Origin: Candidatus Tumulicola sp.
GTDB lineage: Bacteria > Vulcanimicrobiota > Vulcanimicrobiia > Eremiobacterales > Eremiobacteraceae
DNA length: 64,000 nt
Reading direction: 5' to 3'
Assembly: GCA_035601835.1 (NCBI GenBank)
Contig: DATNNM010000018.1
Location: 1 to 64,000, forward strand
Part shown: one piece after another, positions 2,610-14,199 of the stretch
How the letters are laid out: the number at the start of each line of letters is the position of its first letter
Numbering within the stretch: the stretch's first letter is position 1
Notes under the pieces: generated by a model
Told to the model about the DNA's origin: nothing
Database searches by the model: none
Seen by the model: only the letters and a program-made list of their open reading frames with translations
Translations under genes and position numbers: made by a program

Positions 2610-4073
2610 CTATTGCGCCCGTTCTTGTAGGCCTGAGGCTTTAGCCCCGGTCCTCATCGCTATGAACACCGGGACGGCGAATATGACCCCCGTCAAAGAA
2701 ACGAGCGCCCACGTCGACTGGATTGCCAGCCCCTCGAGGATGTACCGCAGCGGGATGAGCGCTGCGAACCACCAGGCATACACCGCCCAGCGACCGGTCG
2801 CCGACACTGCCGGCGCCAGCCACAACAGATACCAAGGATGGACGATCGGCGAAGCCCATATGAAGCCGGTCACAGTTCGCCATAGGTGCGCGAACGACTG
2901 ATCCTTGACGAAGCGGATCGCGGACCAAGCCGCGACGCAGAGAAAGCCGAACACGAGCAGGAGCTGGATCAAGCGCGGCCACGTGAGCACGCCGACCAGC
3001 GGCAAGGCCGGCACGCCGCCGAATACCGGCAAGCCCGCGGTGCCGGCCGCGAAGAACGGCCAAGACAGCAGCCAGCTCGGCGACATCGCGAGCACGTTGA
3101 TGTTGCCGGACGCGGCATGCAGCGTGCTGTCGCCCAGCCAGAACGGTCTGAAGCACAAGGACGGGATGGCGATCGCGAAGAGCCCGCACAACACACCCGC
3201 GACCGCAGACTTGCGCCAGGCGATGGCGATCAGAAACGGCAGGGCGAGAACGGAGACGTACTTGATCGCCACCGACGCGCCCAGGAGCACGCCGGCGAGC
3301 AGCGGCAGCTCGTCGACGAGCGCGAATGCCCAGGCCGCCGGCGCCAGCATGAGGATCTCGTTGTGGCCGCCGACCGCCGTTTCGTACAAGACCAGCGGAT
3401 GGAACGCGAAGAGCGCAGCTCTGCGGCAGCGTTCCTGAGGCGGCTCGCGACGCAAGACGTACAGCAAGGCCGCCAACACGAGTGCAGCCGCGGCGACCGC
3501 GAGCGCCCGGTACGACCAGGCTTGCCACCACAGGCTCGCGCCTGCTTCAAGTCGTGCGATCCCGCCCGCCATCAGCGTCCACAGCGGCCCATACGGGTCA
3601 CCGTACGGCGGATTTTTCGTGTAGCCCGCGATTTGCGCGATGACCTGGTCGCCGGCGGCGACCGGCGCCGCCCCAAGCGCGTACGGATTCAGTCCGTGCA
3701 GGCCATACAGCCGCCCGTACATGACGTAGTAGTAGAGATCGCCGGAATGCACCGTTGAAAAGGAAGTGAGGACCGCCGCCACCGCTATAAAGGAAGCGAC
3801 CACGAGAGCCGGACGGCCTGCCACGCCGAGCGCACGCGCCAATTGCCAACCGGCAAGCGCCAGACAGGCGAGCATGCCCCAAAGCGCTGCGAGCACCGGC
3901 CAGCCGGGGTAGGCCGATTGCACGAGGTGGATCGGCAGCGTGAAGGCATACGCCACGTCGTAGCTATGCGAAGGGTCGCGGAAGAACTCACTCGCCACTG
4001 CGAGCCGCTGCTCGGCCCAGCCGCCCGCGAGCGCGATGGCGATCATCGCCGCGATCCAGATCCACAGGCGCAT
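2610..4073 (-). CDS. GT-C mannosyltransferase-like membrane protein (GT87/MptB-like), copy 1
   Basis: A 487-residue polytopic membrane protein with a dozen or so hydrophobic spans. The motif SGDLYYYVMYGRLYG...HGLNPY, then NPPYGDPYGPLWTL and VGGHNEILML, match the polyprenyl-phosphate-dependent GT-C transferases of the GT87/MptB type. Such enzymes transfer a sugar from a lipid carrier on the outer face of the membrane. The ATG shares one base with the upstream stop (TGATG). The last residues (TGAKASGLQ) are encoded by a degenerate family A repeat, so the C-terminal tail appears repeat-derived. It is a paralogue of the gene at 5996. The exact sugar and acceptor cannot be read from sequence. Confidence 0.8.
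   Translation of the reverse strand: MRLWIWIAAMIAIALAGGWAEQRLAVASEFFRDPSHSYDVAYAFTLPIHLVQSAYPGWPVLAALWGMLACLALAGWQLARALGVAGRPALVVASFIAVAAVLTSFSTVHSGDLYYYVMYGRLYGLHGLNPYALGAAPVAAGDQVIAQIAGYTKNPPYGDPYGPLWTLMAGGIARLEAGASLWWQAWSYRALAVAAAALVLAALLYVLRREPPQERCRRAALFAFHPLVLYETAVGGHNEILMLAPAAWAFALVDELPLLAGVLLGASVAIKYVSVLALPFLIAIAWRKSAVAGVLCGLFAIAIPSLCFRPFWLGDSTLHAASGNINVLAMSPSWLLSWPFFAAGTAGLPVFGGVPALPLVGVLTWPRLIQLLLVFGFLCVAAWSAIRFVKDQSFAHLWRTVTGFIWASPIVHPWYLLWLAPAVSATGRWAVYAWWFAALIPLRYILEGLAIQSTWALVSLTGVIFAVPVFIAMRTGAKASGLQERAQ
2631..2650 (+). repeat. Degenerate family A repeat inside a coding end
   Basis: GCCTGAGGCTTTAGCCCCGG is an imperfect copy of the family A hairpin, preceded by a GTAG head at 2627-2630. 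It lies inside the last codons of the minus-strand GT-C gene and contributes its C-terminal residues. The mutated left arm weakens the stem. Confidence 0.6.
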
Positions 4074-5995
4074 CAACGTTTCTCTTCCAAAGCATACACG
4101 GTGACGGAATCAGCGCTGAACATCCGCCGGAGCACACCCGCGCGTTCGTCGGCCGCCAGCACACCCCAGTCGATTCCGGTGGGCGTGCGTCGCACGTACG
4201 CCGGGTGAGCGTTGACCACCATGTACGTGAAGCCTGCGTCCATAAAGTCTTGATAGCGGCGCTTGGCGGGCGCTTGCCAATCCACGTCCCAGCGCGCTTG
4301 ATAAAACGGATTCGCCCAAACAGTATTCGACCCGAAGTAGTAATCGCGCACATCGTCGAGCGCGACGATCTTCGCTCCCGGCGCCTTCGCGCCAAGCCAT
4401 TCGGCCGCGCCGTACGTCTCCAAGCGTGCCCGCAGGTACTGTGCACCGGTCTCGGCGTGTGCGAGGTACGCGAACGCCGGCGCCAGGCTGTTCGAAGCCT
4501 CGTTCTCGAGCGCAGCGAACCAATTCGAGGCCACGCCGAAGACGCACAAGCCGAGCAGCACGGCGCAAGCGACGTTGCGCAGCCGGGGCGCCGCGTCCAC
4601 TGCGCCGGCTGCGGCGATGATCGACATCAGGCTCAAGGCCGGAAGCAGAAAGCGCCACTGTTGCGTCGTGACGAACCACACGGCGGTCAGCGCCATGCCT
4701 ACGAGCGCGAGCGAGCGCGTGCGCCGCAGCAGCGCGACCGCGGCGATCGCCAAGATGCCGCCCAGACGAAGCGCGTAGCCTGGATCGCCGCAAAACGAGC
4801 GCGGATCCGCGACAAGACGCCAGGGCAGCAGGAAGGCATCGCGCAACGACGTGCCGCCGCCGCACCAGTGACGCGTCATCTCCAGATAGCGCTGCCCGAA
4901 GGCTTGCAGCTCAGGCGAAGCGCCGAAATTGGCGACGAAGAGGGGGTACAGCGGATCTCCGGCAAGCGCCCACGTGCGCGCGTACCAGCCGGCCGCCATC
5001 AGCGCGAATCCGATCCCGAAACCGCCGAGGCGCGCGCGCCACTGCGCGGGCGCTAATGCGACGGCGAAACCCGCTGCGATCGCGCCAGCCGGCAAACCCG
5101 GATACTTCGACGCCGCCGCTGCTCCCGCGAGCGCGCCGCAAAGCACGCCGAGAGAAAATCCGGACTTCGCTCGGAACGCTACATTTCTGTCGTCGTTTTT
5201 GTCGTCGCTCTTGTCGCCGGCGAACAGCGGCACGGCCAGGGCGGCGACCAGAAACAGCGCGAACGGCACGTCGATGTAAAACGTCGGCGCAAGCCACAGC
5301 CACAGCGGACTGGCGGCGAGCAGCGCTGCGGCGATCGGGCCGGAGCCCGGCGCGAGGCGTTGCGCGATAACGCCGCACAGCATCACCAGCGTGATTCCGG
5401 CGCCCAACGTCGCGAAAGCTGCTCCGGCGCTTCCCGCGATGGCGTATGCAGGCAGCGCCGCCGCTTCCGAAAGTTGCGGGAAGGCGCTTTGCACCATCTG
5501 CTGGTCGAAGCCGAAGGTTCCCCGCTCGAGCGCGCGCGCCACCAGCGGCAAGTGATAGGCGATCGGATCCCACCACACCGCGGGCAGCGCGGCGGCGACA
5601 GCCGCAGTCGTAATGGCCGCGCCGACGATCGCGTACGCGCACTTGTCGAGCGCCGTTCCGTCGCGCCAGCTCGCGCCGAGCGCCGCGAACAGGCCGGGCG
5701 TCTGAGCCATCATCCTTATATGCGCGGGAGCGCGCGCGAGCGTGAGTATCACCAGCAGCGCGATCGCAGCCAGGCTGCTCGCGAGGTGGGCCAGTCCGAG
5801 CAACGCGACCGCCGAACCGATGAGGGCGTAACCCAAAGCCGCCCCGACGAAGCGCGCGTGGCCGCCCTCGACATCGGGAAGCAGCTTGGCGATCGTCCAC
5901 GAACCAAGGTCGGCGGCGAGCGCCCACAACCACGCTGCGGCGACGACGCCGCACGCGAACCTGATCCCAAAATCTCCCGCGTCCAGCCAATGCAT
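4073..5995 (-). CDS. Large GT-C type integral membrane glycosyltransferase
   Basis: A 640-residue protein with many hydrophobic helices spread over roughly the first 500 residues and a soluble C-terminal region of about 120 residues. The layout is that of GT-C (GT39-like) transferases that use polyprenyl-phosphate sugars. The segment WWDPIAYHLPLVARALERG resembles the first extracytoplasmic loop, where a catalytic acidic residue lies in such enzymes. It sits between two GT87-like paralogues, one base overlapping the downstream gene and directly abutting the upstream stop (TAGATG). It is therefore part of the same polysaccharide operon. Sugar specificity is unknown. Confidence 0.7.
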   Translation of the reverse strand: MHWLDAGDFGIRFACGVVAAAWLWALAADLGSWTIAKLLPDVEGGHARFVGAALGYALIGSAVALLGLAHLASSLAAIALLVILTLARAPAHIRMMAQTPGLFAALGASWRDGTALDKCAYAIVGAAITTAAVAAALPAVWWDPIAYHLPLVARALERGTFGFDQQMVQSAFPQLSEAAALPAYAIAGSAGAAFATLGAGITLVMLCGVIAQRLAPGSGPIAAALLAASPLWLWLAPTFYIDVPFALFLVAALAVPLFAGDKSDDKNDDRNVAFRAKSGFSLGVLCGALAGAAAASKYPGLPAGAIAAGFAVALAPAQWRARLGGFGIGFALMAAGWYARTWALAGDPLYPLFVANFGASPELQAFGQRYLEMTRHWCGGGTSLRDAFLLPWRLVADPRSFCGDPGYALRLGGILAIAAVALLRRTRSLALVGMALTAVWFVTTQQWRFLLPALSLMSIIAAAGAVDAAPRLRNVACAVLLGLCVFGVASNWFAALENEASNSLAPAFAYLAHAETGAQYLRARLETYGAAEWLGAKAPGAKIVALDDVRDYYFGSNTVWANPFYQARWDVDWQAPAKRRYQDFMDAGFTYMVVNAHPAYVRRTPTGIDWGVLAADERAGVLRRMFSADSVTVYALEEKR

Positions 5996-7426
5996 CTAGG
6001 CGGGCTCCGAGGCAGCCCGGCGCAGCCGCGCGATCAGCACCGGCCCGAGCAAGAACGCGCAGGTGAACGCCACCTGCAGGGGCAGCGGGAAACGGTTCTG
6101 TGCCACCGTCTCGAGCGGGTAGCGCAAGAATACAAGCGCGGCGAACCACCAGGCGTAAGTCGCCCACGCGCCGCCGCCTGCCATCGCCGGTGAAAGCCAC
6201 AGCACGTACCACGGGTGGATCGCGGGCTGCGTCCAGATGAGCGCCGCGATCGTGCGCCACAGAGCGCCGGCGCGGCCGCGTTGCACATACTCCCAGATCG
6301 AGACCAGCGCGATGATCGCGAACACGATCAAGAAACCGTTGCGGATCGGGTTGACGAACTCGACCAGGCCCGCCGCGTAGTAGCGATATTCGACCGTCCA
6401 CATGGGCGACATCGCAAGCGCAGGCGGACCACCACCCGGCGCCGCGCTCTGCACATGAGCGGCGCTCCAAAACGGCACGAAGCATACGAGGGGCACGGCG
6501 AGCGCGAGCAGCGACGCGAGACCTGCGCGCAGCCAACCCGAATGGCGCGCCTTGAGGAAGAAAAACGGCAGCGCCACCAGGGAGGCATACTTTATGGAAA
6601 TCGATGCACCGAGCAGCAGCCCGGCGTACAGCGGCATCTCCTCGACCAGCGCAAACGCCCAGATGCCGAGGGCGACCATGATGACGTCGTTATGCGCGCC
6701 GACTGCCGCTTCATAAACCACGAGTGGATTGAACGCGAACGCGCCGACGCGCGAACACCGTTCGCGCCAGCTCAGACGCCGCAGGATATGCCACAGGCCG
6801 CCGGTAGCGGCCAATGCGGCGCCCACGGCGAGGATGCGCTGCGTCCACAACTGCAACCACAGCGTCGCTCCCGATTCGAGCCGTCCGATCAGACCTGCGA
6901 GCAGCGTCCAAAGCGGGCCGTATGGATCCGCATACGGCGGGTTGCTGAGCGCGGCGAGGGAAAGCTTGAGCGCGGGGTCCGACGCCAACGACAGCGGCGT
7001 GCTCAAGACGTACGGGTTGATGCCATGCACGCCGAAGATGCGCGCGTATGCCGCGTAATAGTATATGTCGGCCGATAGCGTGAGCGGAAGGAACGTCAAA
7101 GCCACGAGCAGCGCTGTTTGGATCCCGAAGAACCTGCGCCGCGACTCAGGCGAATCGGCGAGAGCGCGCGTCAGGCGCCAGCCACACAAGCCGAGCAGCA
7201 GCGCCATCGTCCACAGCGCGGCGACCATCCACCAACCCTGCGCGGCACAGTTGATCACGGGGATCGGCAGCGCGAGACCCGCCGTGCAATCCTGCGCGCC
7301 GCTATAGCCGCGGACGACGGCTTCGGCGGACAGCATCGCTGCAGCGCCCGCTGCGGCCGCGGCAAAGATCGCGACGGTCCACAACGTGGGCACAGGCTTG
7401 GCGGCGCGTGTCGGCGCGGTCGTCAA
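5996..7426 (-). CDS. GT-C mannosyltransferase-like membrane protein (GT87/MptB-like), copy 2
   Basis: The protein is about 476 residues and homologous along its length to the one at 2610. Shared signatures are DIYYYAAYARIFGVHGINPY, NPPYADPYGPLWTLLAG and AVGAHNDVIMV. It is predicted to be a multi-spanning, lipid-carrier-dependent glycosyltransferase acting outside the cytoplasm. I chose the TTG at 7426, which overlaps the upstream TGA by two bases. The open frame continues upstream to 7585, but that part lies inside the GT2 gene. Two divergent paralogues separated by another GT-C gene suggest successive sugar additions or an old duplication. Confidence 0.78.
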   Translation of the reverse strand: MTTAPTRAAKPVPTLWTVAIFAAAAAGAAAMLSAEAVVRGYSGAQDCTAGLALPIPVINCAAQGWWMVAALWTMALLLGLCGWRLTRALADSPESRRRFFGIQTALLVALTFLPLTLSADIYYYAAYARIFGVHGINPYVLSTPLSLASDPALKLSLAALSNPPYADPYGPLWTLLAGLIGRLESGATLWLQLWTQRILAVGAALAATGGLWHILRRLSWRERCSRVGAFAFNPLVVYEAAVGAHNDVIMVALGIWAFALVEEMPLYAGLLLGASISIKYASLVALPFFFLKARHSGWLRAGLASLLALAVPLVCFVPFWSAAHVQSAAPGGGPPALAMSPMWTVEYRYYAAGLVEFVNPIRNGFLIVFAIIALVSIWEYVQRGRAGALWRTIAALIWTQPAIHPWYVLWLSPAMAGGGAWATYAWWFAALVFLRYPLETVAQNRFPLPLQVAFTCAFLLGPVLIARLRRAASEPA

Positions 7427-8493
7427 TTCGCCGGCGTCTCGAGATAGCGGGAGTAAGCTTCGAGATCCGCGGCGCCATTGCGCTGCTGCGCCTGCAGCCG
7501 CTCGCGCGAGGCGCGCGCGCGCCTGCGCAGGCGCACTCCCTCCGCCCATATGAGCGCTCGATGCAACGGCGGCAGAGCGACGCACGCGGCGCGCAGCGCG
7601 AGCAATGCGCTTCCCGACACCCGCGCGTGGTAGCGGTCGCGCAGCATGAGAGCCGCGGCGCGAGAGCCTTCAGCGTCGCCGCGCACCAGCGACTTGACGC
7701 TGATCTCCAAGAGCTTGCCGCGCACCTGCGCCAAAAGGCGCCGGCGCAGTTCGGCGCGCGCGGCCGCATCGATCCGCTCGTCGCCGGCCAGAGTCCGGAT
7801 CATCTTCTCATAGCCGGGCACGACCGCGACCGTTTCGTTGACGGAGTTCGAACCGGGATGACTGACGTAGGCGGCGCACGGAGCGAATGAGACCAGCATG
7901 GGGAAGCGCGCCGCGACGCGCATAGCGTAGTCGAGGTCCGAAGCCGGACCCACTTCCCGATCCAGCACCCCGACCCGATCGATGGCCTCGCGCCGGAATA
8001 CGATACCGGTCCACGTCGGGTGGCGGTTGCCGAGCATGCGCAGCGCGCCTTCGGGAGGTTCAAAGGTGCCCTCCCGAGGCCAGTATGCCAACGGCACGTA
8101 CAGCAGCGCGCCGTCTTCGGCGAACTCGAGCGTAGAGCCCGCGAAGAGCAGCGCGTCGGGTTGCGACTCCAGCGCGGCGACCGCGGTCTCATAGAAGTTC
8201 GGGAAGAGCACGTCGTCGTCCGACAAGAACGAGAACAGCGGCGTGTCGACGGCCCGCATGCCGAAAAGGAAATTCTCGAACGCGCCGATATTCGCCGGAT
8301 GGCGATGGTAGATCACCCGCGGGTCGGCGGCGGCGATGCGCGCGACGACCGCCTCGGTTTCGTCGCCCGACGCGTTATCGAAGACGCGGACGATGATGTG
8401 ACGGTAGGTCTGCTCCAAAACGCTGCATATCGCGCGACGCAGCAGCGCCGGCCGGCGATACGTCGGGATGACGGTGGTGATGGTCGCCATCAT
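7423..8493 (-). CDS. Family 2 glycosyltransferase
   Basis: A 356-residue GT-A fold transferase. The N-terminus TTVIPTYRRPALLRRAICS, the FDNASGDET segment and the SDDDVLF metal-binding DxD (residues 92-94) are typical of family 2. These enzymes use nucleotide-activated sugars at the cytoplasmic face. The start ATG overlaps the stop of the aminotransferase gene. Its place directly after the CDP-sugar genes suggests it transfers the modified sugar made by them, but donor specificity is inferred from context only. Confidence 0.88.
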   Translation of the reverse strand: MMATITTVIPTYRRPALLRRAICSVLEQTYRHIIVRVFDNASGDETEAVVARIAAADPRVIYHRHPANIGAFENFLFGMRAVDTPLFSFLSDDDVLFPNFYETAVAALESQPDALLFAGSTLEFAEDGALLYVPLAYWPREGTFEPPEGALRMLGNRHPTWTGIVFRREAIDRVGVLDREVGPASDLDYAMRVAARFPMLVSFAPCAAYVSHPGSNSVNETVAVVPGYEKMIRTLAGDERIDAAARAELRRRLLAQVRGKLLEISVKSLVRGDAEGSRAAALMLRDRYHARVSGSALLALRAACVALPPLHRALIWAEGVRLRRRARASRERLQAQQRNGAADLEAYSRYLETPAN

Positions 8494-9527
8494 GCGAAGA
8501 AGCTGACGACGCCGTCGATGACCCGGTCCGCGAACTCCGGCTTCATGTTCGAATGCAGCGGAAGCGTGAGGACCTCCGTCACGACCTTTTCGGTCACGGG
8601 GAGCTCAGCGCGCTTGGCGTCCGCGAAATACGCGTGCCGGTGCACGGGCACGAAGTGGATGCCCACGTCGATGGCGCGCTCCCTCAGATGGGCGATCAGC
8701 GCCTCGCGCTTGCCGCCGAGCACGCGCAGGCTATAAATGAAGGGCGAGACGTCGGTGAAATCGCTTGGCGGCACCCGCACGCCCGCGAGGGCTCCAAAGG
8801 CCTGGTTGTAAGCACGGCAAACGGCTTGCCGGCTATGGATGAATTCATCGACGCGCTTGATCTGCGAGACGCCGACGCTCGCCATGATGTTGGTGAGGTG
8901 ATAGCGGTACCCGTCGCTGACTACGTCGTAATCCCAGGCCCGGCGATTCTTGTAACGTTCGGTCGTGTCGCGGTCCACGCCCAGCAGGCGGCGCCGCTGC
9001 AGACGGTCCCGTTCGTCCTCATCCCCCAGCACGACGCAGCCGCCGTCGATGGACGTGATGACCTTGACCGGATCGAAACTGAACGCGGCCAGGTCCCCGT
9101 AGCTGCCGATCTTCTTGCCTTCGATCGCCGTGCCGAAGGCGTGGCATGCATCTTCGATGACGCGCAGACCATGCTGCTCGGCCAGCCGGAACACTCCGGT
9201 CTGGTCGCACGGGATCCCCGCGAAATGCAAAGGTATGATGGCTTTCGTGCGCTTGCCGACGAGTTCGCCCGCAGATTCGCAGTCGATCCCCAGATCGTCG
9301 TCCCGAATGTCGCACATGACCACGTCGGCGCCCGTCAAGCGCACCGCTTGATGATCTGAGACGTAGTTGAACGACGGCGTTATGACTTCGTCCCCGGGGC
9401 CCACCCCGGCTGCGAGCAGCGCCAAGTGCAGCGCAGACGTGCCGGTGTTGGTGACCACGGCGTAACGTCCGTTCAGGCCCAGATACGCGGCGATCCGGTC
9501 CTCGAACTCCTTGGTCGTCGCCCCCAT
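8490..9527 (-). CDS. DegT/DnrJ/EryC1 sugar aminotransferase (start codon problematic)
   Basis: A PLP-dependent sugar aminotransferase. The motif FSFDPVKVITSIDGG carries the internal-aldimine lysine (K155 from the first ATG) and EDACHAFG the cofactor-binding aspartate. With the lysine present it should be a true aminotransferase rather than an RfbH-type dehydratase. In context it may convert the CDP-4-keto-6-deoxy sugar to a 4-amino sugar. The ATG at 9527 removes conserved N-terminal sequence: upstream codons in frame read IPVFAPHIGADTKE...DVGWLG and match the family start, yet contain no ATG, GTG or TTG before the TAA at 9621-9623. The true start may be ATC at about 9614 or ATT at about 9605, with a GAAGGA element ahead. 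Confidence 0.88.
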   Translation of the reverse strand: MGATTKEFEDRIAAYLGLNGRYAVVTNTGTSALHLALLAAGVGPGDEVITPSFNYVSDHQAVRLTGADVVMCDIRDDDLGIDCESAGELVGKRTKAIIPLHFAGIPCDQTGVFRLAEQHGLRVIEDACHAFGTAIEGKKIGSYGDLAAFSFDPVKVITSIDGGCVVLGDEDERDRLQRRRLLGVDRDTTERYKNRRAWDYDVVSDGYRYHLTNIMASVGVSQIKRVDEFIHSRQAVCRAYNQAFGALAGVRVPPSDFTDVSPFIYSLRVLGGKREALIAHLRERAIDVGIHFVPVHRHAYFADAKRAELPVTEKVVTEVLTLPLHSNMKPEFADRVIDGVVSFFA

Positions 9528-9620
9528 GCCGAGCCAACCGACATCGAGCGCGGCGTTGATGTGCTCTTTGGTGTCGGCTCCGATGTGCGGCGCGAAGACG
9601 GGAATCGTTTCGATGGCGCT

Positions 9621-10349
9621 TTAGTCCTTCACTCGACGCAAGTAGCCGCCGGGAGCGACCGTGATCAGCAGTCTCTCATCTATTCGAGCATCGGCTTCGA
9701 AGCGGTCGTCGGCCGCGAGAAACGCCTGCGTGGCCGTCATCGGGCTGTTCCCCCGGCCCCACGGCCGGTCGCCAAGCGCGCTCTCATCCATCCATTCCAC
9801 CACGGTGTCCATCACGACGAGGTAGCTGCCTTTGGTGACGAGCGGAGCGTAGAGCCGCAGCTCCTCGGACACGTGAGCATGCGTGTGGTTCGAATCCAGC
9901 ACGACCATCACCGGCGCTTTGCCCCGGGCGCGCTCTGCGACCTGCGCCGCGACGGCGGGATCGGTGGACGATCCTTCGATGAGCGCGATGCGTTTGGCAA
10001 GCGGATGCGCTTCGATAGCGGCCCGATTATGAGGCCGGATCTCGATGTCGACGCCGGCGACCATGCCGTCGCCGCCCAGCAGTTCGAGCATAGAGGCGAA
10101 GAACACCGTCAGCCCGCCGTGCGCGACGCCCGTCTCGACGATCAAGCGCGGCTTCACCTGCCAGACGATCTCCTGCAACGCGACGATGTCCTGCGGATAC
10201 TGGATGACCGGCCGGCCCAACCAGGAGAAGTTATACGAGTAGCGATGCGCATTGAGCAGATCGAAGAAGCGTCGCGTCAAGCGCCGCAGCTCTTCATCCG
10301 AGGCCATGCGCGCGATGACCTCTGGATCGCGCGGCTCAGCGCTGCTCAC
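9621..10349 (-). CDS. CmcI-like (cephalosporin hydroxylase family) methyltransferase-fold protein
   Basis: About 242 residues with a Rossmann-type SAM-binding core. Visible text includes LIVETGVAHGGLTVFFASML, VAGVDIEIRPHNR, and VMVVLDSNHTHAHVSEELRLYAPLV. This matches the CmcI/cephalosporin hydroxylase family (PF04989-like), many members of which are found in polysaccharide loci as presumed O-methyltransferases. The GTG at 10349 overlaps the upstream gene by 14 bases; the frame is open further upstream but only inside that gene. The stop lies in the same frame as the downstream aminotransferase. Confidence 0.82.
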   Translation of the reverse strand: MSSAEPRDPEVIARMASDEELRRLTRRFFDLLNAHRYSYNFSWLGRPVIQYPQDIVALQEIVWQVKPRLIVETGVAHGGLTVFFASMLELLGGDGMVAGVDIEIRPHNRAAIEAHPLAKRIALIEGSSTDPAVAAQVAERARGKAPVMVVLDSNHTHAHVSEELRLYAPLVTKGSYLVVMDTVVEWMDESALGDRPWGRGNSPMTATQAFLAADDRFEADARIDERLLITVAPGGYLRRVKD

Positions 10350-11103
10350 GAGGCCGCTCCTTGATCTCGACTCGGATTTCGAATTCCCGGCCGCCGTCCT
10401 CAAAACGCACGGCCGGGTACGGTGGAAACGTCCGCGCGCGCATCAGGTTCAGCAAGTCGCGCGCATGGTACGATCGCCCCAGCTCGATGCGCGAGATCGC
10501 GTCCATCTCAGACGCGCGATGCGCGGTCGCGCGGTCGTCGTCTTGAGCGGCTCGCGGCACCGTGCCGGCGCGGATCTGCGGCCAGTGCTTGACGAAGAGG
10601 TCGACGATCGCTTTTTGCGCTTTGTCGTAAAGGCTGCGGCCGGTGTCTTCCCACGTGGTTTCGAGTCCGGACTGGAACGCGATCGCGCCTGAATCCACTC
10701 CGTCATCGAGCCAATGGATGGTCACGCCCGCCGGCGTCTCCTCGACGATGGACCAGAAATTCGGATTCTTCCCGCGATTGTACGGCAGCAGGCTCGGGTG
10801 GAGATTCAAGAATCCCAGGCGCGCGGCTGCGATCGTTTTCTTGGACAGCAGATGGGGCCACCACGCGCATATCCCGAGCTCGAGCTGGTAGCCCGAAAGT
10901 ATCGCAGCCAAGCGATCGTTGTCGCCTTTGCCGATGACATGCGTGTCCTTCGCAGGCATTCCCAGCGCCTCGCTGATCTTGCCGTTCAAGCCATCCTCAT
11001 CGGCGGCGTCCAGGAGCAGGCATGCCGGCCGTTCGCCGGATCGCCCAAGAAACGCCGCGACCTCGAGGCCGACCTTTCTAGCCGCCAGCAAAGCGAAGTT
11101 CAC
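10336..11103 (-). CDS. Sugar N-formyltransferase-like protein
   Basis: A 255-residue member of the Met-tRNA/GART-type formyltransferase fold that uses N10-formyl-tetrahydrofolate. The key N..H..D elements are present in FLNLHPSLLPYNRGKNP and TIHWLDDGVDSGAI. The protein lacks a full Fmt C-terminal tRNA-binding domain and sits in a nucleotide-sugar operon, so formylation of an amino sugar is more likely than Met-tRNA formylation. The GTG start overlaps the upstream TGA (GTGA). With a DegT aminotransferase in the operon, it plausibly makes an N-formylamino sugar. Confidence 0.82.
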   Translation of the reverse strand: MNFALLAARKVGLEVAAFLGRSGERPACLLLDAADEDGLNGKISEALGMPAKDTHVIGKGDNDRLAAILSGYQLELGICAWWPHLLSKKTIAAARLGFLNLHPSLLPYNRGKNPNFWSIVEETPAGVTIHWLDDGVDSGAIAFQSGLETTWEDTGRSLYDKAQKAIVDLFVKHWPQIRAGTVPRAAQDDDRATAHRASEMDAISRIELGRSYHARDLLNLMRARTFPPYPAVRFEDGGREFEIRVEIKERPREQR

Positions 11104-12365
11104 GTCAGCGCGCTTTCTGCGAGAAGCTGCGGTTCCGGGATGAGCGTGGCAAAGCGCCCGTTCCATCTCGCTATGCCGCGCATTTGCGCGGTGATCTCCG
11201 CGAGGATGTTCCACGGAAACACGACCACGACGTCGGGCTTTCGTTCAAAGATCTCTTCCGGGGCGAACACGGGCACGCGCACGCCTGGGATGAAGCGCCC
11301 CTGTTTATGGGGACTTCGATCGACGGTGTATTCGATGATATCCGTGCCGATTCCGCAATAGTTGAGGATCGTCGTCGCTTTCGCCGGCGCTCCGTAGCCT
11401 GCGAGCCGCATGCCCGTTCCCACGAGTCCTTCGACGAACGCTAGAATCCTGCCGCGCACGTCTCTCGTCCGCGCGCCAAACGCTTTGTAGACCGCTAGGG
11501 ATCCCAAGCCTGCTGCGCGCTCGTGCGCCAGCAGTGACGCGACGCGCGCGGACGGCTTCGCGGCCGCGGCATGCTGCACGTGCACGCGCAGCGATCCGCC
11601 GTGCGTCGGCAATTCGTCGACGTCGCTCACCGTCAATCCGTGAGCGGCGAAGATGCGCGACGCGGTCATGAGCGAGAAATAGGAATAGTGCTCGTGGTAG
11701 ATGGTGTCGAATTCCCCGCCTTCCAGCATGCGCAGCAGGTGCGGGAATTCGAGCGTGATCGTGCCGGCGGGCTTGAGGAGCGTGGCGAGTCCGGCGACGA
11801 AGTCGTTGACGTCGGGGACGTGAGCCAAGACGTTGTTGCAGACGATCAGGTCGGCGTTCGTGCCGGCCGTTCTCATCGCACCCGCTAGCGCAGTGCCGAA
11901 GAATTCCGGAAGCGTCGGGATGCCGCTCGCTACCGCTTCTGCCGCGACGTTCTTCGCCGGCTCGACGCCGAGCACGCGCACGCCGCGCTTTTGGAAACAG
12001 CGCAGCAAGTGCCCGTCGTTGCTGGCCACCTCCACCACCAGATCTGCAGGCCCGAGAGCCAGCTGCGCGGTCATCTGATCCGCATAGCGCCGCACATGCT
12101 CGAGCCAGCTGGTCGAATACGACGAGAAGTACGCATACTCGGAGAATATCTGCTCGCGGCTCACCACCTCCGGCACTTGCATGAGCCAGCACTTCGAGCA
12201 GACGTAGGCGCGCAAGGGGTAAAGCTCGTCGGCACGGTCGAGCCGGCTCCCGTCCACGAGCGCATTGGAAAGCGGCGACAGTCCGAGATCGAGCACGGCT
12301 TCGTCAAGCGCCGCGCCGCAAAACCTGCACCGGAGAGCCGTCGCGGACGCCTCCGGCCCCGTCAT
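11100..12365 (-). CDS. Nucleotide-sugar C-methyltransferase
   Basis: A 421-residue SAM-dependent C-methyltransferase of the TylCIII/NovU type. An N-terminal zinc-binding domain shows CRFCGAAL and CSKCWLMQVPEV. It is followed by a SAM-binding core (VVEVASNDGHLLRCF) and a C-terminal domain with HGGSLRVHVQHA and GYGAPAKATTILNY. Such enzymes add a methyl to C3 of a 4-keto-6-deoxy sugar nucleotide. The ATG overlaps the upstream stop (ATGA) and the stop overlaps the next GTG. The frame continues upstream of 12365, but that part lies in the neighbour. Confidence 0.92.
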   Translation of the reverse strand: MTGPEASATALRCRFCGAALDEAVLDLGLSPLSNALVDGSRLDRADELYPLRAYVCSKCWLMQVPEVVSREQIFSEYAYFSSYSTSWLEHVRRYADQMTAQLALGPADLVVEVASNDGHLLRCFQKRGVRVLGVEPAKNVAAEAVASGIPTLPEFFGTALAGAMRTAGTNADLIVCNNVLAHVPDVNDFVAGLATLLKPAGTITLEFPHLLRMLEGGEFDTIYHEHYSYFSLMTASRIFAAHGLTVSDVDELPTHGGSLRVHVQHAAAAKPSARVASLLAHERAAGLGSLAVYKAFGARTRDVRGRILAFVEGLVGTGMRLAGYGAPAKATTILNYCGIGTDIIEYTVDRSPHKQGRFIPGVRVPVFAPEEIFERKPDVVVVFPWNILAEITAQMRGIARWNGRFATLIPEPQLLAESALT

Positions 12366-13432
12366 GGCACCGCGGCGACGCGCAGTCGCTCGATGTCGGC
12401 TTCGACCAGATCCCGCGGGTTCGCGCCGGCGCGTTGAGATTTGTGCCACTCGACGACCGAGCCCAACGCCGGCTCCAAAGGGATGTGCGCGCGCCAACCC
12501 AGCCGCTGCGCCGCCTTTGAAGAGTCCAGGCGCAACTCCGGCTCTTCCCGCAGGCCCGTTCCGCCATCATCGCTATGCTGCCAACTCGCGCCGTCACCCC
12601 AACGTTCGGCCAGAAAGTCGGCGAGCGCGCCCACCGGCCGTTCGTGATCTTCTGCCGGACCGAAGTTCCACGCCTCGGCGAATGGCGCTCCCTCTTCGCA
12701 CAAGCGCTCGGCGAGCGTCAAGTAGCCCTCCAGCGGGTCGAGGACGTGCTGCCACGGGCGCACGGCTTTCGGATTTCGCACGCGCGCGGGCTTGCGGGCG
12801 ATGAATGCGCTGATGACATCCGGCACCAAGCGATCGCGCGCCCAGTCGCCCCCGCCGATGACGTTGCCGGCGCGCGCCGTGGCCACCACCGCAACGGATG
12901 CGGCGGCTGCCAGCACACCGCGATATCCCGACGTCACGAGTTCCGCTGCCGCCTTGCTCGCCGCGTATGGGCTGTTGCCTCCCAACGCATCGTCTTCACG
13001 ATGCCGTCGAGCATCGGGCGCAGGCGCGTAACACTTGTCGCTCGTCACCATGACAGCCGCGCGCACGCCGGCATCGCCCGCAATGGCCTGCAGCACATTG
13101 CCCGTGCCGATCACGTTCGTCTCGTACGTCGCGAGCGGCTCGAGGTAAGAGGTCCTCACGAGCGACTGCGCCGCCAGATGAAAGACCACGCTCGAGCGGG
13201 CATCGCTCAGCGCCGCGGCGACTCGGCTCGCGTCGCGGACATCGCCGCTGATCGAGCGCATGCCCCGCGCTACGTCTGCAGTCTCGAACAGGTTAGGCTG
13301 CGATGGAGGCGCGAGCGAATAGCCGGTGACGTCTGCGCCGAGGCGCTGCAGCCACAGCGACAACCACGCTCCTTTGAAACCAGTGTGGCCGGTGACGAAT
13401 ACCCGCCGTCCGCGCCACCAACCAGGATTCAC
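12362..13432 (-). CDS. rfbG: CDP-glucose 4,6-dehydratase
   Basis: A 356-residue short-chain dehydrogenase-type enzyme that converts CDP-glucose to CDP-4-keto-6-deoxyglucose. Visible are the dinucleotide motif [18 protein letters not shown], the catalytic region MVTSDKCY and the YxxxK pair in [11 protein letters not shown]. The FKGAWL variant of the glycine loop is typical of RfbG. The start is GTG at 13432, overlapping the upstream TGA; the open frame further upstream is in the neighbouring gene. It works directly with the cytidylyltransferase encoded just before it. Confidence 0.95.
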
Positions 13433-14199
13433 TTCCAGACCTTCCACGGCGCCGCCCCGCGCGCCCACAAATCGTTGAGCAAGTTCTTGTCGCGCAGCGT
13501 GTCCAAAGGCTGCCAGAAGCCTCGGTGCACGAACGCGGAGAGCTGACCTTCGCGTGCCAGCCGCTCGAGCGGTTCGCGCTCCCAAACCGTGTCATCGCCT
13601 TGGATGTAGTCCATGACGCCGGGTTTGAGCACGAAGTAGCCGCCGTTGATCCAGCCGCCGTCACCCTGCGGCTTTTCATCAAAAGCTGTGATCTTGTTGC
13701 CGCTCACCGCGAGCACGCCGAATCGTCCGGGGGGCTGCGCCGCCGTCACCGTCGCCAGCGTCTTCTGTGCGCGATGAAACGCGATGAGCGCGCCGATGTC
13801 GACGTCGCTGACCCCGTCGCCGTAGGTCAAACAGAAATCTTCGTCTCCCAAGTAGCGCCGCACGCGTTTAAGGCGGCCGCCCGTTCCGGTCTGCTCGCCG
13901 GTGTCCACCACCGTCACCGACCACGGCTCCGCGGAGCTTGCGTGGACCGCGACGGAGCTTGCACGCATGTCGAACGTGACGTCCGACATGTGCAGGCCAT
14001 AGTTGGCGAAATATTCCTTGATGACGTAGCCCTTGTAGCCGCAGCAGATCACGAAATCGTTGATGCCGTGGGCGGAATAGGTCTTCATGACGTGCCATAA
14101 CACCGGCATGCCGCCGATCTCCACCATGGGCTTGGGACGCAGGTGCGTCTCCTCGCTGATACGGGTCCCTAAACCACCCGCCAGGATGACCGCTTTCAT
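13429..14199 (-). CDS. rfbF: Glucose-1-phosphate cytidylyltransferase
   Basis: A 256-residue nucleotidyltransferase that makes CDP-glucose from glucose 1-phosphate and CTP. The N-terminal [14 protein letters not shown] loop, [10 protein letters not shown] with its catalytic lysine, and [10 protein letters not shown] (metal-binding aspartate) are characteristic of RfbF. It is the first gene of the minus-strand polysaccharide operon. Its ATG faces a divergent GT2 gene across an 87-base gap, where the operon promoter probably lies. It commits glucose 1-phosphate to the CDP-sugar route. Confidence 0.96.

Follow-up and report, generated by a model that had tools for sequence, protein, structure and literature searches.

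Which sugar is assembled, and on which nucleotide carrier, when the opening enzymes of cytidine diphosphate (CDP)-sugar biosynthesis are encoded together with a C-methyltransferase, an aminotransferase and a formyltransferase? The question is raised by a seven-gene operon on the minus strand of a 64,000-nucleotide stretch of Candidatus Tumulicola sp. DNA (assembly GCA_035601835.1, contig DATNNM010000018.1, positions 1 to 64,000; hereafter the window). Sequence comparisons make it probable that the operon produces one CDP-activated sugar, an O-methylated 4-formamido-3-C-methyl-4,6-dideoxyhexose, which is passed to a family 2 glycosyltransferase (GT2). The argument draws on features that can be read directly, namely, gene families and their catalytic residues, the operon itself, the exchange of genes at a fixed slot, co-occurrence across genomes, and recurrence in other phyla.

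Operon organization and gene content

The operon runs from 14199 to 7423 in the order RfbF–RfbG–C-methyltransferase–formyltransferase–CmcI-type methyltransferase–DegT aminotransferase–GT2. Four of its six junctions are 4-base overlaps, one is a 14-base overlap, and one is a direct abutment. The original prediction had placed the operon at 8490–14199, positions that coincide exactly with the aminotransferase stop and the RfbF start. All the genes it named are present; it omitted the GT2 gene (7423–8493; PF00535), the last of the operon, which nine further genomes of the family keep at the same position.

The first two genes carry the identities anticipated for them, as both products exceed the NCBI curated equivalog cut-offs. 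RfbF (13429–14199; TIGR02623, 453 bits, cut-off 300) is a glucose-1-phosphate cytidylyltransferase, responsible for CDP-glucose formation, and RfbG (12362–13432; TIGR02622, 412 bits, cut-off 278) is a CDP-glucose 4,6-dehydratase, responsible for CDP-4-keto-6-deoxyglucose formation; the GTG start of the latter overlaps the RfbF stop, and its Tyr156-x3-Lys and GHTGFKG motifs are present. The third gene (11100–12365) encodes the expected TylCIII-type enzyme, a sugar 3-C-methyltransferase of the TylC3/MtmC/TcaB9 type with a zinc-binding Methyltransf_13 domain (PF08421, 72.9 bits), a C-terminal Methyltransf_14 domain (PF08484, 186.5 bits), zinc cysteines at residues 13, 16, 56, and 59, and a YHEH motif from residue 223. 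Its best match in the Protein Data Bank (PDB) is a D-mycarose 3-C-methyltransferase (4rv9, E 5e-79). The formyltransferase gene (10336–11103) follows, its GTG start overlapping the C-methyltransferase stop. The CmcI-like methyltransferase (9621–10349), of the CmcI/rhamnosyl-O-methyltransferase family, scores 283 bits against PF04989 (cut-off 23) and falls under the cut-off of the rhamnosyl equivalog NF045824; it is predicted to methylate, probably, a sugar hydroxyl.

The DegT aminotransferase (8490–9620; PF01041, best families PseC and ArnB) retains the pyridoxal phosphate lysine ascribed to it, Lys186 in SFDPVK, which aligns with the lysine of ArnB SFHAIK. It fails the test for an RfbH/ColD-type enzyme, having kept Lys rather than His and scoring 135 bits against a threshold of 423 for NF011936. 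No RfbH had been noticed in the operon, and this absence extends genome-wide, since no DegT protein other than the operon aminotransferase was detected at E ≤ 1e-4 in the window's genome (2.57 Mb, 97.9% complete). For the same reason, an RfbH hidden elsewhere in the genome is rejected.

A proposed route to a branched formamido sugar

From this gene content we infer the following order of steps, all of which would take place on the CDP-linked sugar. RfbF and RfbG would provide CDP-4-keto-6-deoxyglucose, to which the C-methyltransferase would add a methyl group at C3, adjacent to the 4-ketone, with retention of the C3 oxygen. C-methylation would precede amination because this type of enzyme needs a neighboring ketone, and the C3 oxygen would be kept because there is no RfbH. 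The aminotransferase would then replace the 4-keto group with an amine, which the formyltransferase would cap from N10-formyl-tetrahydrofolate, yielding CDP-4-formamido-3-C-methyl-4,6-dideoxyhexose. The amine is placed at C4 on two grounds: enzymes of a C3 pathway are missing, and C4 enzymes are what both the aminotransferase and the exchangeable caps resemble. The aminotransferase is nearest to PseC and ArnB, which act at C4, and the set of folds nearest to the formyltransferase includes C4 N-formyltransferases. The CmcI-type enzyme would O-methylate a hydroxyl that the neutral sugar also carries, O-2 being the likeliest, either ahead of the transfer or after it, and the GT2 would receive the finished CDP sugar. 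RmlC is absent from the window operon, whereas it is present in most loci outside the family, a difference hinting that the D configuration may be retained in the window's sugar; one RmlC is found elsewhere in the window's genome.

The formyltransferase as a probable sugar enzyme

The N/H/D triad reported in the original prediction is indeed intact (N100/H102/D137) and is invariant across 32 aligned sequences. Both PF00551 (Formyl_trans_N, 73.6 bits) and PF18216 (the N-formyltransferase dimerization C-terminal domain, 29.7 bits) score above gathering. A structure model (mean predicted local distance difference test, or pLDDT, of 94.4) finds its nearest solved folds in a Shewanella enzyme (6v2t), the Francisella 4-N-formyltransferase 4nv1, Rv3404c, and ArnA, with a template modeling (TM) score of about 0.8 to 4nv1 and 6v2t and about 18–26% identity in the fold matches. 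Domain, triad, and modeled fold together file the protein as a predicted sugar N-formyltransferase.

Action on tRNA, one outcome against which the original prediction had been framed, is not what the sequence indicates. The enzyme is rejected as a methionyl-tRNA formyltransferase, as it scores 67.7 bits against the 201.5-bit cut-off of TIGR00460 and the genome carries a separate Fmt-like gene (L002, contig C7), whose best family is TIGR00460 as judged from a 138-residue partial stretch. The fold is that of sugar enzymes, and the gene occupies a slot that a sugar acetyltransferase fills in relatives. The guanine-plus-cytosine content of the gene, overall (GC) and at third codon positions (GC3), matches that of its operon neighbors; with this and with flanking genes syntenic in L048 and L038, the idea that the operon is a recent island is unsupported.

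Exchange of genes at a fixed position

The C-methyltransferase is present in 41 of the 149 genomes of the window's phylum, 40 of whose C-methyltransferase neighborhoods were examined. Within the window's family, the locus takes three forms: formyl, acetyl, and reductase. Five genomes (G016, G017, G018, G019, and G023, the contig of the last ending within RfbG) share the window's gene order except that a NeuD/PglD/VioB-family acetyltransferase stands where the formyltransferase would be. This protein exceeds the TIGR03570 cut-off. Perosamine N-acetyltransferase heads its PDB matches, with PglD-type and VioB enzymes next; all of these act on 4-amino sugars. Four others (G020, G021, G022, and G026) have neither the aminotransferase nor an N-acyltransferase and carry instead an RmlD-like or other reductase-type gene of the short-chain dehydrogenase/reductase (SDR) class; the CmcI-type gene persists in loci without the aminotransferase. 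Synteny of the flanking genes in L048 and L038 identifies these forms as exchange at one locus. The locus is, as far as its genes reveal, modular: interchangeable genes would decide between reduction and amination of the 4-ketone and, for the amine, between an acetyl and a formyl cap. At L042, L043, L049, L051, and L075, an aminotransferase orthologue lies beside or near the C-methyltransferase with no recognized N-acyltransferase nearby.

The nature of the exchangeable genes bears on the position of the amine. Were the amine introduced at C3 before C-methylation, a 3-amino-3-C-methyl sugar would result, as in the vancosamine and tetronitrose pathways; such a route would be in keeping with the relatives of the C-methyltransferase, TcaB9 and a related sugar 3-C-methyltransferase, which act on 3-amino sugars. 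However, the operon contains neither a 2,3-dehydratase nor a 3,4-ketoisomerase, the aminotransferase resembles C4 enzymes, and the exchangeable acetyltransferase resembles PerB, PglD, and VioB, all of them C4 enzymes. A C3 amine is thus unlikely, and amination at C4 of a CDP-linked sugar is preferred.

Co-occurrence across genomes and phyla

Orthologues of the aminotransferase (68–73% identity) occur in 19 genomes of the phylum, and 18 of these also encode the C-methyltransferase, compared with 41 of 149 overall (Fisher p about 5e-11, a value which, like those below, overstates independence because the genomes are related). RfbG accompanies the aminotransferase in 17 of the 19 genomes, and in 17 of 19 the aminotransferase lies within 5 kb of the C-methyltransferase. 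Separate pathways for the C-methyltransferase and the aminotransferase, a further outcome that the original prediction had named as contrary to it, are improbable on this distribution, as far as sequence can tell.

With additional RfbG neighborhoods from two more phyla (40 Acidobacteriota and 60 Pseudomonadota; those of Chloroflexota, with 6 matches, and 14 others were left out of the comparison), the cross-phylum test comprises 71 loci with a C-methyltransferase in three phyla, genes being counted within 6 kb. An N-acyltransferase is found at 18 of the 30 loci with an aminotransferase vs. none of the 41 without (p about 3e-9), and a reductase at 3 of 30 vs. 31 of 41 (p about 4e-8); both associations point the same way whether the window's phylum is taken alone or the other two are pooled. 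The 4-ketone would therefore be either reduced or aminated and N-acylated. As the CmcI-type gene is present both with (21 of 30) and without (21 of 41) the aminotransferase, its target would not be the amine.

These distributions also bear on the carrier. RmlB (TIGR01181, above cut-off), RmlC, and GMD are present elsewhere in the window's genome, and several of the folds nearest to the formyltransferase are 4-N enzymes acting on a deoxythymidine diphosphate (dTDP)-linked sugar, dTDP-Qui4N. The aminotransferase and formyltransferase could, then, act on a dTDP-4-keto-6-deoxy sugar from RmlB while a neutral CDP sugar arises separately from RfbF, RfbG, and the C-methyltransferase. Yet the distribution of aminotransferase orthologues in the phylum follows that of the C-methyltransferase and RfbG, mostly with close linkage to the C-methyltransferase, and the reductase expected of a neutral CDP sugar is mostly missing where the aminotransferase occurs. 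We regard this division into two pathways as improbable, slightly more so than a C3 amine, and favor a single CDP sugar.

Points that temper the proposal, and relatives of the formyltransferase

Beyond the kinship of the genomes compared, several considerations weigh against a single, functional CDP pathway. RmlB and RmlC could together supply a dTDP-4-keto sugar, and with both in the genome the formyltransferase may, by its sequence, accept a dTDP substrate. Its nucleotide pocket is unproven, as its next relatives belong to nonulosonate and guanosine diphosphate (GDP)-heptose settings. 

None of the solved-structure matches listed for the formyltransferase is described as CDP-dependent, and no orthologue was detected in the 148 other genomes of the phylum at E ≤ 1e-30. 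None of its 80 best other relatives in an alignment-based genome scan adjoins RfbF/RfbG, and most of those with a recognized setting stand beside PseB/NeuB or HddA/HddC genes; among 11 whole-searched genomes of such relatives, one contains RfbG anywhere. In collections of plasmids, phages, and viruses, every formyltransferase whose neighborhood was read stood outside an RfbF/RfbG setting. Sugar formyltransferases do lie on viral contigs (L285, L287–L289, and L291) and in Pseudomonas phage Y5 (OQ572407.1), several of them adjoining DegT aminotransferases, which suggests that phage-borne N-formyl sugar genes exist.

The start of the aminotransferase gene presents another difficulty. The conserved N-terminal region extends back as far as the CmcI stop. 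No ATG, GTG, or TTG lies between the CmcI stop (TAA, 9623–9621) and the conserved aminotransferase N-terminus (IETIPVFAPHIGAD), where relatives in sister genera (L046 and L048) have a GTG at the corresponding position. Candidate starts are ATC at 9614–9612 and ATT at 9605–9603; the first ATG, at 9527, comes too late, as about 30 conserved residues would be lost. A gene without a usable start would leave the pathway idle in this strain, with a 4-keto or neutral sugar as its product. We hold this to be very improbable, the least credible of the alternatives considered: the frame is intact over 376 codons, its GC3 of 0.83 is like that of its neighbors, and identity to the orthologues stays at 68–73%, while an ATC or ATT start coupled to the upstream stop is possible and a one-base assembly error could account for the anomaly. 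A rare ATC/ATT start or an assembly error at this position is the likely explanation.

Recurrence of the gene set in other phyla

The search for the same gene set elsewhere, suggested at the outset, uncovered it at three loci, L232, L220, and L223. L232 (genome G918, Pseudomonadota set) carries RfbF, RfbG, RmlC, the C-methyltransferase, the aminotransferase, the formyltransferase, and the CmcI-type gene in a row; its formyltransferase is 41% identical to that of the window over 249 positions, and in a phylogenetic tree the two are sisters (support 100/99). At L220 and L223 (two genomes of the Acidobacteriota set) the order is RfbF–RfbG–C-methyltransferase–RmlC–aminotransferase–formyltransferase–CmcI, with an aminotransferase 50% identical to the window's and a formyltransferase (L220 12967–13788, L223 5245–6066; PF00551, 51 bits) from another lineage, in which, for L220, Pfam detected no N-formyltransferase C-terminal domain. 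Because the L220/L223 enzymes lie far from the window/L232 clade, formyltransferases have joined the CDP module at least twice. On balance, and with less assurance than for the pathway itself, we lean toward regarding the window and L232 enzymes as forming a subfamily of their own, CDP-sugar N-formyltransferases that would be the first known to use CDP, within a formyl/acetyl-swapping module that diversifies a branched cell-surface sugar.

In a candidate-phylum bacterium, HddA and HddC (GDP-heptose) genes occur together with C-methyltransferase, RmlC, CmcI, formyltransferase, and aminotransferase genes (L089, 1738–12280); this cluster is possibly a GDP-heptose counterpart of the CDP pathway. 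Within the window, three large proteins are encoded downstream of the operon (2610–7585), two without a Pfam match and one matching GT87; they are probably membrane glycosyltransferases and may use the operon's sugar. PilT/PilC-like genes, assigned by reading of the sequence alone, lie at the window edge (71–2515).

Relation to known systems

The C-methyltransferase shares its domains, zinc cysteines, and YHEH-type motif with TylC3, MtmC, and TcaB9. These enzymes act on dTDP sugars without a C2 hydroxyl, whereas the substrate proposed here is a CDP sugar with a C2 oxygen. The two-domain fold, N/H/D triad, and DegT pairing of the formyltransferase recur in FTT_1447c, VioF, Rv3404c, WbkC, ArnA, and PseJ, which act on dTDP-, GDP-, or uridine diphosphate (UDP)-linked sugars, as PDB titles in part reflect; the window operon, by contrast, makes CDP-4-keto-6-deoxyglucose. 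The CDP-3,6-dideoxyhexose and yersiniose pathways (RfbF, RfbG, RfbH) begin with the same RfbF and RfbG, but the window is without RfbH, so that the C3 oxygen would be kept and amination and N-formylation would follow. The GDP-perosamine and bacillosamine modules (an aminotransferase with PerB, PglD, or VioB) follow the same logic of 4-ketone to 4-amine to N-acyl cap, and an acetyltransferase of their type sits in the identical slot in sister genera; they differ in that the window's sugar would be CDP-linked and C-methylated and that its cap gene is a formyltransferase.

The sugar type itself is known. The glycopeptidolipid of Mycobacterium avium serovar 14 contains 4,6-dideoxy-4-formamido-3-C-methyl-2-O-methyl-L-mannose, or N-formyl-kansosamine, according to the title of Bajza et al. 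(1998) as cited in PMC6268951, and N-acyl kansosamine is found in the lipooligosaccharide of M. kansasii (PMC4403928). On the evidence of that title, N-formyl-kansosamine shares the predicted substituents (4-formamido, 3-C-methyl, 2-O-methyl, and 6-deoxy) and is of the L-mannose type, whereas the window operon is without RmlC. The claim that a CDP-linked branched N-formylamino sugar would be new would accordingly hold for the CDP carrier and not for the sugar, which reduces what is new to the activated form and its biosynthesis: a route by way of CDP and a module in which acetyl and formyl caps are exchangeable. In a literature collection without most subscription papers, neither biosynthetic genes nor a nucleotide carrier was found for the mycobacterial sugar, and searches on CDP-linked N-formyl sugars and CDP-4-keto C-methylation returned nothing relevant.

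Implications

The product of the operon looks like an unusual cell-surface sugar. For kansosamine-type sugars, no described biosynthetic route was found in searchable papers; the operon offers a candidate set of enzymes for one, and its locus illustrates how single-gene exchange at a fixed position would alter both the cap (formyl or acetyl) and the branch (amine or hydroxyl) of one sugar. If the proposal is true, a CDP-dependent N-formyltransferase would widen the class and would provide a testable model for carrier choice.

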